Shown piece by piece: positions 41,400-47,769 of a DNA stretch of 53,297 bases. The notes under the pieces were generated by a model, which had not been told where the DNA came from, did not search any database, and saw only the letters and a list, made by a program, of their open reading frames with translations. Position numbers and translations under genes: made by a program. The stretch is taken from the NCBI GenBank assembly GCA_020723935.1, contig DYHY01000007.1:1-53297 (forward strand), read 5' to 3'. Each line of letters opens with the position of its first letter. Positions within the stretch are counted from its first letter, which is position 1. The stretch is from Candidatus Micrarchaeum sp. Its GTDB lineage: Archaea > SpSt-1190 > DYHY01.

Positions 41400-41476
41400 G
41401 AAAAGCTTTCCATATCCAGCCAAACATCGGCAAACTTGAAACTAACCTTAAAAGCCGCATTTTCTCTACCTCAAAA

Positions 41477-41839
41477 ATGGACGAACAAATCACTATTACT
41501 GAACTTAAGCAGAAAATCAAACTATTTTGTGAGGAAAGAGACTGGGACCAATACCACAACGCGAAGGAGCTTGCAATAGGCGTAATAACCGAGGCTGCGG
41601 AGCTTCTCGATCCATTCCGATTCAAGTCGCCTCAAGAAGTAGACGCCATGTTCAAGGATTCACAGAAACGCGAACAAATATCCGAGGAAATGGCAGCTGT
41701 CTTCTATTTCCTCATCAGGTTGGCACAAAAATATGACATAGACCTTTCATCTGAGCTTGTCAGAAAGCTCGAGAAGAACCACAAGAAATACCCTGTCAAC
41801 AAGGCCAAAGGATCAAACAAGAAGTACACGGAGCTGTGA
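41477..41839 (+). CDS. MazG-like nucleotide pyrophosphohydrolase
   Basis: 'FCEERDWDQYHNAKELAIGVITEAAELLDPFRF', 'ISEEMAAVFYFLIRLAQKYDIDL'. Confidence 0.85.
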   Translation: MDEQITITELKQKIKLFCEERDWDQYHNAKELAIGVITEAAELLDPFRFKSPQEVDAMFKDSQKREQISEEMAAVFYFLIRLAQKYDIDLSSELVRKLEKNHKKYPVNKAKGSNKKYTEL

Positions 41840-41842
41840 CTA

Positions 41843-43719
41843 ATGAGTCTCCAAAAAGATTCTATTATATTATATGAAGGCTCAATTGAACAGTTCAAAC
41901 AAGATGTCTTGTGCAGTCGGTTGATCGATATCTTAAGCGAAAACTATCGGAGATTCTACGGAGGAGTGAACCCTAGAGAGGCCCGCGCTTGGACAAATTC
42001 CTTACGCTGCGTGAAGGATGCATTCGAGATAGCTGAACTATCTAGAAATTATGTTGTCGTTGAGTACTGCCTTCCACACGCTTCCGGTAGAATAGATGTG
42101 CTTGTCTTCGGCAAAGACAGAACAGATTCTGAACACGTTGTACTCTTGGAGTTAAAACAGTGGTCGAATGACAGCATTTCGTCGTCTCCTATAGAGAAGA
42201 ATCTAATTGTCAACTACGGAACGTTCAAAAAGCCGTCGGAACATCCAGCACTTCAAGTCAAGTCCTAAGATACGACAGTTACCTTCGCAATTTCAAAGAA
42301 GTCTTTCAAGACAACTCAATATATCTCAGTTCCTGTGCGTATCTCCACAACTATTCGAGAACCACAGACAAGTTAATCTTTACGAAGCAGTTTGAAGAGC
42401 CGTTAACTAAGTTTCCCGTTTTTGCCAAAGAGGATGTAAAAATACTAGGCCAGTTTCTGAAACAACGACTTGAAGCAGGCTCCGGTCTGGAAGTTTTCGG
42501 CAAGTTCTCGAAGAGTCCGACAAAACCTTCGATGTATCTCCTAGACAACACAGCGAAGCTTCTCAAACGACAACGCCTTTTCACATTGATTGATGAGCAA
42601 GGCGTTGTCGAAAATACCATAATCCAAAAGGCCAAAGAGCTGGCAGGCACGCAAAAGAAAAGCGTAATTATAGTGAAAGGCGGGCCCGGAACTGGAAAGT
42701 CTGTGATTGCACTAGATGCAATGGCGGAAATAATGAAGATGGGTATTGAAGTTTACCATGCAACCGGGTCCTCTGCCTTCACGAAAAATGTCAGAGACAT
42801 AGTCGGACCCACCGCCTCGCCCTTCTTCAAGTTCTTCTATAATTTCACAAAAACGTCCGACGACCAGATCCCCGTTTTAATCTGCGACGAAGCCCATCGT
42901 ATCAGAAAAAACAGTAGCGACTGGGGTGTTCCGCTCCAGTTCAAGTCTAAGGTACCCCAAATTAACGACCTAATTAGACCCGCCCGTCTTTCAATATTCT
43001 TTCTGGACGAACGCCAAGTTGTCAGGCCGAACGAAATAGGGAGTATTGAACTCATCAAAACTGCAGCGAAGAATCTCGGCGTAGCGAACGAAGAGATTTT
43101 TGAATTTGAATTAACCACCCAGTTCAGGTGCGGAGGATCCGTTTCATATCTCCAATGGCTAGAGAATGTACTCGGAATGAATGAAAGTGACAAAACATAC
43201 TTGACCAAGGAAGACCGTATTCAGTTCACTATAGTGGACAACCCAGTCGAATTGAAACGACTAATGGATGAAAAGAACAATGAACTTAAAAATTCTGCTC
43301 GGATTGTTGCCGGATTCTGTTGGCCATGGAGCGAGCCGAGACCAGATGGAACACTTGTGGATGATGTTGTCATTGGAACTTTTAGAATGCCTTGGGAGAA
43401 GAAAGACGAGTTTTGGAGGTGGGCCCGGCACGATTCAGGCATGGAACAAGTAGGGACCGTTTACACCGCGCAAGGATTCGAATTCGACTACATTTTTGTG
43501 ATTTTCTCCGACGACTTGACATACAACAGCAAAACTCTTTCTTGGGAAGCGCATCCCGAGAAGTCGTATGATGCTATGGCCAAACGCGGGAATGACAGAT
43601 TCGACGAGCACCTGAAAAACATTTATCGCGTCCTTCTCTCCCGCGCCCATAAGGGTGTCTACGTATATTTTACCGACAAAGAGACTGAATCATTTTTCAA
43701 ATCAAGAATTTCAAATTAG
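41843..43719 (+). CDS. PD-(D/E)XK nuclease-like + DUF2075 P-loop NTPase/helicase-like protein; frame broken near 42255
   Basis: 'SGRIDVLVFGKDRTDSEHVVLLELKQWS' (D...ExK); 'VKGGPGTGKSVIALDAM', 'CDEAHRIRKNS', 'YTAQGFEFDYIFVIFSDDL', 'RVLLSRAHKGVYVYF'; intervening 42.27-42.53 kb stays open in the downstream frame. Confidence 0.78.
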
Positions 43720-43763
43720 TTGACGCCGTCATGAAGTTTGTTCGCAGCCGTTCGAGCTCAGTT

Positions 43764-46461: not shown

Positions 46462-46925
46462 TTAGTGCTTTGTGCGGCCCTCTCCCGCCGCCGCAGCGAG
46501 CTCCACCACCGTCCCGGGCGCCCCCCGGAACGGCGCGACCGAGACGGAGAGCACCCTGAACAGGCCGCCCTTGCGCTTCAGCATTGCCTCCGCGGTCCTG
46601 GGGTAGAACATCGCGTTGTCGTAGATGAAGACGTGCTCCTTGACGGACGATCCGACCTTCGCGCCCAAAAGGCGAGGTCGTCTTGGATCTCCGCCACGCC
46701 CGTCGGGTCGTCCGGAATCTTGCCCTCGGCAGCCTCTCGCGGGGTCGCGGCGCATGTCAGATACCAGTACACCCTGTATCTGTCGTACTTCTCGAGAAGA
46801 TGGCACATCCTCGTCTTCCCCACCGCGTTCGCCCCGACCAATTGGACTGGCCCCTTGCGGGAGTCAAGGACCCTCACGACCGCTTCCCAATCGTCCGGAC
46901 CCACTAAAACACGTTCCTGAGCCAT
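46462..46925 (-). CDS. Small P-loop ATPase-like protein, frame broken near 46665
   Basis: 'GPVQLVGANAVGKTRMCHLLEKYDRYRVYWYLTC...AEIQDDLAFWAR' continues in another frame as 'KVGSSVKEHVFIYDNAMFYPRTAEAMLKRKGGLFRVLSVSVAPFRGAPGTVVELAAA'. Confidence 0.6.
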
Positions 46926-47034: not shown

Positions 47035-47769
47035 TTATTTCGCGACTGTGGAGGAGGGCGAATCGGCGCCGGATTTTCCCGGCCTGTCCGTCCACCAAAG
47101 CCAAGTGAGCCAGGCAAGCAGGATCGCCGCTATCATCCCAAACTTCCAGAGGATCGCGTGGACGAGGCCCACGAGTTCCGGACGGGCCACCCCGTAGAGG
47201 AGTATGACGACGAGCCGGGCGATGTTGGTTGCGTAGATCACCGGAACGCCCACGACAATCCCAGCAAGCCTCTTCCAGCCGTTCCGTCCGGGGGTGGCGA
47301 GGACGAGCGCGGCGAAGGCGAACATGTCCTTCCAAGCGACGCAGGCCTCGATGATCTCAAGTATCACCGTCCCAGCCCGGACAAGGTACCCATCCGCGAC
47401 CGCCTGGACGCCCAAATAACCCGAAATCGCCGCGACCTGCCGGGCGATTGAGACCTGCGCCCAGGTGAAATCGGCCTTCATATAGAGGAGAAGGTAGACT
47501 GGCAGGGAAAGGAACGTGAACTTGATCAAGAAGAGGGAAATCGTCCTCCACTCGGCAAGTATCCTCCTCCTCCCCCTCCTCCTCGCCGCCGAAATGCCGT
47601 CACGGACGTCCTTGGGCCCCGGAAGCTTGGAGAAGGGAGGAAAGAGCAGTACCCTGACGAGATCAGCTCGAGGAGGCGACGAACCTGAGGTAGGCCTGGT
47701 TCCAGCGCCTTTCCTCGTCCCTCGAGAGCATACCATCCTCCTCCGATACGAGCGCGAATTCCCCTTCAA
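47035..47769 (-). CDS. Exosortase/archaeosortase-family transmembrane protein (start uncertain)
   Basis: Multi-TM with Cys 'EIIEACVAWKDMFAFAAL', Arg 'IYATNIARLVVILLYG', His 'LVHAILWKFGMIAAILLAW' in the expected order. Confidence 0.75.
   Translation of the reverse strand: MKGNSRSYRRRMVCSRGTRKGAGTRPTSGSSPPRADLVRVLLFPPFSKLPGPKDVRDGISAARRRGRRRILAEWRTISLFLIKFTFLSLPVYLLLYMKADFTWAQVSIARQVAAISGYLGVQAVADGYLVRAGTVILEIIEACVAWKDMFAFAALVLATPGRNGWKRLAGIVVGVPVIYATNIARLVVILLYGVARPELVGLVHAILWKFGMIAAILLAWLTWLWWTDRPGKSGADSPSSTVAK

Follow-up and report, generated by a model that had tools for sequence, protein, structure and literature searches.

A candidate mobile defence module of a MazG-like pyrophosphatase and a nuclease-helicase, and its apparently damaged copy in a Micrarchaeum contig

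The window (the whole 53,297-nt stretch of DNA analysed here) carries, in an insert of low G+C content, a gene for a MazG-like pyrophosphatase followed by the sequence of a PD-(D/E)XK nuclease-helicase. The order of this gene pair is conserved from DPANN archaea to Bacteroides, and the pair also occurs on plasmids and a phage. On balance, we lean towards regarding it as a mobile two-gene defence module that combines a nuclease-helicase with a nucleotide hydrolase, and of which the window holds a damaged copy. If the pair indeed defends cells, destruction of the nucleotide pool would be linked in it with a nuclease-helicase attack.

The low-GC insert and its two genes

The gene content of the window, assessed partly by eye, is archaeal and includes genes for the polymerase D small subunit and an Orc1/Cdc6-like protein as well as DHH-CID genes. 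Between positions 41400 and 43720 the G+C content is 0.440, compared with a mean of 0.621 (sd 0.042) over 2-kb windows, of which this stretch is the minimum; the low-GC insert at 41.4–43.7 kb of the original prediction was thus recovered. Its codon-position G+C is unlike that of the adjoining recJ-like gene. The expected location between recJ-like and permease genes also held, with a recJ-like DHH gene on one side and an ABC-2 permease gene on the other, and the two genes of the insert are separated by 3 nt, as had been stated (MazG stop codon at 41837–41839, next ATG at 41843). A search of the insert edges for flanking direct repeats or a tRNA gave nothing convincing. Further downstream, an exosortase/archaeosortase-like membrane protein (PF09721) is encoded at 47038–47769 on the minus strand; in two relatives its counterpart sits about 0.5–1 kb beyond recJ, and therefore the 41.4–47 kb stretch appears to be variable. 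The features of the insert are listed in Table 1. One could guess from the sequence that CCTTAAAAG, at 41446–41454, is a leaderless promoter of the MazG gene.

Table 1. Features of the inserted module in the window
Feature	Position	Strand	Basis
Whole low-GC inserted module	41400..43719	+	G+C drop; helicase missing from the nine other genomes of this class
Possible archaeal TATA-like element, CCTTAAAAG	41446..41454	+	23–31 nt before the MazG start codon; read from sequence
MazG-like (DCTPP1-type) NTP pyrophosphatase, 120 aa, Ala for the ExxD Asp	41477..41839	+	PF12643, DCTPP1, alignment of relatives
N-terminal PD-(D/E)XK nuclease fragment, 141 aa, early stop	41843..42268	+	Residues invariant in relatives; predicted fold of a relative
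Frame change site, tandem CAAGT CAAGT, CAAGTCAAGT	42254..42263	+	Three-frame translation and sequence
SLFN-g3_helicase part, other frame, 485 aa	~42262..43719	+	PF09848, ORF list, conserved columns

The product of gene 1 matches the MazG-like family PF12643 with 51.1 bits (cut-off 27; E=1.6e-13), in agreement with its earlier assignment as a MazG-like pyrophosphohydrolase. Its best relative of solved structure is human DCTPP1, aligned over nearly the full length (E=5e-18), an enzyme that acts on dCTP and C5-modified dCTPs and has a housekeeping role in the nucleotide pool (PMC7162842). By analogy with this human relative, the substrate may be dCTP or modified dCTPs. The metal-binding Asp of the ExxD motif is present in 69 of 70 relatives and is replaced by Ala in the window copy only, the Ala codon GCT being one base away from an Asp codon. 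The remaining acidic metal-binding residues are retained, so that the ExxE + ExxD motif is incomplete at this single place. Since the family as a whole keeps the catalytic residues and resembles DCTPP1, hydrolysis is more likely than the sensing of NTP pools that had been suggested for this protein.

Gene 2, originally described as encoding one large protein, occupies two reading frames in the window. The N-terminal part contains the predicted D...ExK residues (D85 and E103-x-K105), and the helicase part, with 259 bits to PF09848 (cut-off 24; E=8e-77), belongs to the former DUF2075 family, now named SLFN-g3_helicase in Pfam. Its main motifs are all intact, including DEAHR and the Walker A sequence GGPGTGKS, which had also been noted before. 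In all 50 relatives compared, the E-P-R-D-ExKQW-P-QxxxY residues and the helicase motifs are invariant, and each of these proteins thus contains the D...ExK and QxxxY motifs of the PD-(D/E)XK superfamily. In the window, the frame is broken within QxxxY, between its Gln and Tyr, at CAAGTCAAGT, and the earliest start codon in the helicase frame is at 42532. Frame breaks or stops interrupt gene 2 in three relatives as well (L021, L039 and L049), at other sites, which could possibly reflect repeated inactivation or errors in MAGs.

The predicted N-terminal domain of one relative (pLDDT 96) has NucS/EndoMS as its nearest structure with a probability of 0.99, although with E=1.4e-3 and a TM score of about 0.3; other matches include restriction enzymes and Card1. 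The full-length model built for a relative (pLDDT 88) is most similar to human SLFN11, with RecD2 and Dna2 among the structures ranked next. A sequence search of the PDB with the helicase yielded no match, and AlbA_2, the Pfam family of the Schlafen core RNase, was found neither in the window parts nor in the relatives.

State of the window copy

Because gene 2 is frameshifted and MazG has exchanged its catalytic Asp for Ala, the window copy looks like a dead module and probably is one; provided that the sequence is correct, it should have neither a working nuclease nor a working pyrophosphatase. No second copy of the helicase was found in the genome. If the break is genuine rather than a product of assembly, the proposed coupling of NTP sensing or cleavage to nucleic-acid cleavage is unlikely to take place in this broken-looking copy. 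An assembly error, with the module intact in the organism, is quite possible, if not what we would expect, because neighbouring genes are frame-broken as well: the ABC-2 permease-like gene (PF12679; 43770–44899, minus strand) lies in about five alternating reading-frame pieces, and a gene with a P-loop-like stretch (46465–46925, minus strand), adjoining intact SDR and MarC genes, is split over two frames, neither piece having a Pfam match. The split genes around 43.77–46.93 kb could be either local pseudogenes or the result of poor local assembly. The helicase part is otherwise without unusual divergence, ranking 13 of 72 for deviations among relatives, so its general decay is not supported. 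However, the nearby recJ-like, SDR and MarC genes are intact, and the loss of the MazG Asp is an independent event caused by a substitution.

It is very improbable that programmed frameshifting yields two products from gene 2. Long open frames are kept in both parts, and the few split relatives mentioned above could be cited in its favour, but relatives are nearly all continuous, the splits fall at differing places, no slippery heptamer was seen on inspection, and no start codon precedes position 42532 in the helicase frame. We therefore rejected this explanation on the near-universal continuity of the gene in relatives and the position of the break inside a catalytic motif.

Pairing, distribution and gene neighbourhoods

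A genome scan for relatives of the helicase, from which 80 were retained, revealed that the pair does recur elsewhere, the opposite of what had been named as grounds for refuting the module: a MazG gene lies within 500 nt of the helicase gene in 64 of the 80 loci, and in 59 it is directly upstream on the same strand. Five of the 16 loci lacking an adjacent MazG gene are cut by a contig end. Among 151 Bacteroidaceae species drawn independently, helicase homologues were present in seven genomes, and all six newly fetched homologues adjoin a MazG gene; five of them are full-length, with MazG directly upstream and an S24 domain at the end, while the sixth, which is more distant, has MazG beside it. 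Chance adjacency was ruled out, since only 11 of the 61 archaeal relatives have a MazG-like gene that scores above the family cut-off. In six loci (L016, L038, L051, L056, L073 and L100), two SLFN-g3 helicase genes lie side by side, the second of them having diverged in its N-terminal part.

The distribution of the helicase is patchy. It has matches in three of the 61 archaeal genomes, the window genome included and one match being weak, and it is absent from nine other genomes of the window's class. DPANN archaea, CPR bacteria, Omnitrophota, Nitrospirota, Bacteroidota and other groups are intermingled in the phylogenetic tree, and the 23 phylum labels on it require 34 changes, some of which could be false transfers added by bin contamination. 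The pair is carried by a Halalkalicoccus plasmid, where it is annotated as 'nucleotide pyrophosphohydrolase' followed by 'DUF2075 domain-containing protein', by a Halomonas megaplasmid, by Microcystis phage Mwe-JY31 (PP438423.1, 4657–6863), where both genes are annotated as hypothetical proteins only, and by an IMG/VR viral contig. Nevertheless, the majority of copies reside on chromosomal contigs of cellular genomes, and only 4 of 50,697 phage records have any match. A patchy distribution across domains is what one expects of a mobile accessory module.

About a quarter of the relatives carry a further domain, which is missing from the window copy: 19 of 76 rows of the tree (20 proteins in all) have some 150–240 additional C-terminal residues, and the extensions scanned match Peptidase_S24 (E 1e-6 to 3e-9). 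The S24 Ser (in G-x-SM) and Lys (in a T(V/I)K stretch) are conserved in the aligned tails, masked letters aside, and most tails contain an A-[AC]-[GST] stretch, the place of cleavage in LexA-type proteins. This trait has undergone at least eight changes on the tree. No separate S24 gene was detected among the fetched neighbours of copies lacking the domain. The sequence of this LexA-type domain suggests control by DNA damage.

Genes around the pair were compared as two sets, comprising 146 proteins encoded within four genes of it and a modest control of 146 proteins encoded elsewhere in these genomes. Pfam families among the neighbours include RadC (8), PDDEXK_1 (5), HNH (3), DpnI (2) and C5-methylase (2), and strong PADLOC matches were to restriction enzymes, methylases and PDC candidates. 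At a threshold of 1e-5, 138 PADLOC families were recorded for the neighbours versus 25 for the control. Restriction-modification, HNH, Cas4-like and RadC genes were not seen among the 146 control proteins, whose top families are housekeeping ones. RadC is the commonest neighbour, present in 12 loci; this JAB-domain protein is encoded close to the pair on the same strand in six of them (L019, L028, L029, L034, L052 and L066) and convergently in four (L022, L024, L027 and L030), and it is possibly a third component of the module. A small Cas4/RecB-like PDDEXK_1 nuclease was noted near the pair in L004, L005, L018, L021, L030 and L067; in L005 and L030 its gene immediately precedes that of MazG. 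Taken together, the neighbour families define a context of mixed defence and DNA metabolism.

Possible functions and known systems

Horizontal spread, patchiness, carriage by mobile elements and restriction-modification neighbours fit a defence module, and to this extent the earlier proposal is supported for the family, while the copy that gave rise to it reads as broken. In intact copies, the helicase could load on an invader's DNA where it is single-stranded or where replication has stalled, and travel along it while the tethered nuclease cuts, as the intact motifs and predicted fold would allow; judging from its family, the pyrophosphatase might prevent replication from resuming by depleting dCTP or modified dCTPs. 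The S24 domain, with its Ser and Lys conserved, may act as a self-cleaving switch triggered by damage. The likely benefit to cells would be defence against phages and plasmids.

The main rival reading is a mobile kit for DNA repair or replication stress, in which stalled forks are processed as by Dna2, the nucleotide pool is cleaned, and S24 and RadC provide the tie to damage. We consider it unlikely. RadC, as the commonest neighbour, is as much an indication of DNA repair as of defence, and its close arrangement with the pair on one strand in six loci, the S24 domains of relatives, the structural likeness to Dna2 and SLFN11, and the housekeeping role of DCTPP1 in the nucleotide pool (PMC7162842) are all in line with repair. 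The helicase is nevertheless distributed very unevenly, being found in 3 of 61 archaeal and 7 of 151 Bacteroidaceae genomes, and it spans domains, with phage and plasmid carriage and adjoining restriction-modification genes. Housekeeping repair genes, on the other hand, are usually stable within a lineage. Alternatively, the genes could serve the mobile elements themselves, in replication, stabilisation or competition between elements, chromosomal copies being cargo. The plasmid, megaplasmid, phage and viral contig that carry the pair agree with this, but the predominance of chromosomal copies and the scarcity of matches in phage records make it decidedly improbable.

Beyond the defence module that we favour, it may be proposed, tentatively, that the pair is a prokaryotic replication-stress immune system spanning domains, in which an SLFN11-like helicase, a nuclease and a dCTP pyrophosphatase are placed, in many lineages, under a LexA-type autoprotease switch. 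If true, damage sensing, DNA cutting and nucleotide starvation would be joined in two genes, forming a prokaryotic counterpart of SLFN11-type restriction. Through an S24 fusion acting as a RecA-dependent self-cleavage switch, innate immunity would be coupled to the DNA-damage response, with implications for where SLFN11-type antiviral helicases came from.

No published description of a MazG + DUF2075/Schlafen pair or of its S24 fusion was found in the open-access literature. MazG has been named as a predicted, unvalidated defence domain by DefensePredictor (PMC13092281), and no helicase partner is mentioned for it in the main text of that paper. Human DCTPP1 (RS21-C6), a dCTP pyrophosphatase, has the motifs RDWxQ(F/Y)H and N-x-x-(K/R)YP in common with the window MazG, but it is a free-standing human housekeeping enzyme, whereas the window protein is without the catalytic Asp. 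The Nhi, AbiO and Gabija GajB helicases resemble the present one in the helicase domain (E 1e-13 to 6e-5), to which the match is confined; their N-terminal parts and partners are different (e.g., GajA), the partner here being MazG. PADLOC PDC-S41, a candidate single-gene phage defence with a 657-aa model, is matched by the N- and C-terminal parts of intact relatives (E 1.7e-16 to 4.5e-28), although these matches are distant and in pieces, and the entry is for one gene listed with neither MazG nor S24. In comparison with the group 3 Schlafens, a PD-(D/E)XK nuclease takes the place of the Schlafen core RNase domain, while the Pfam helicase family is shared and human SLFN11 provides the best structural match to the full-length model of a relative.
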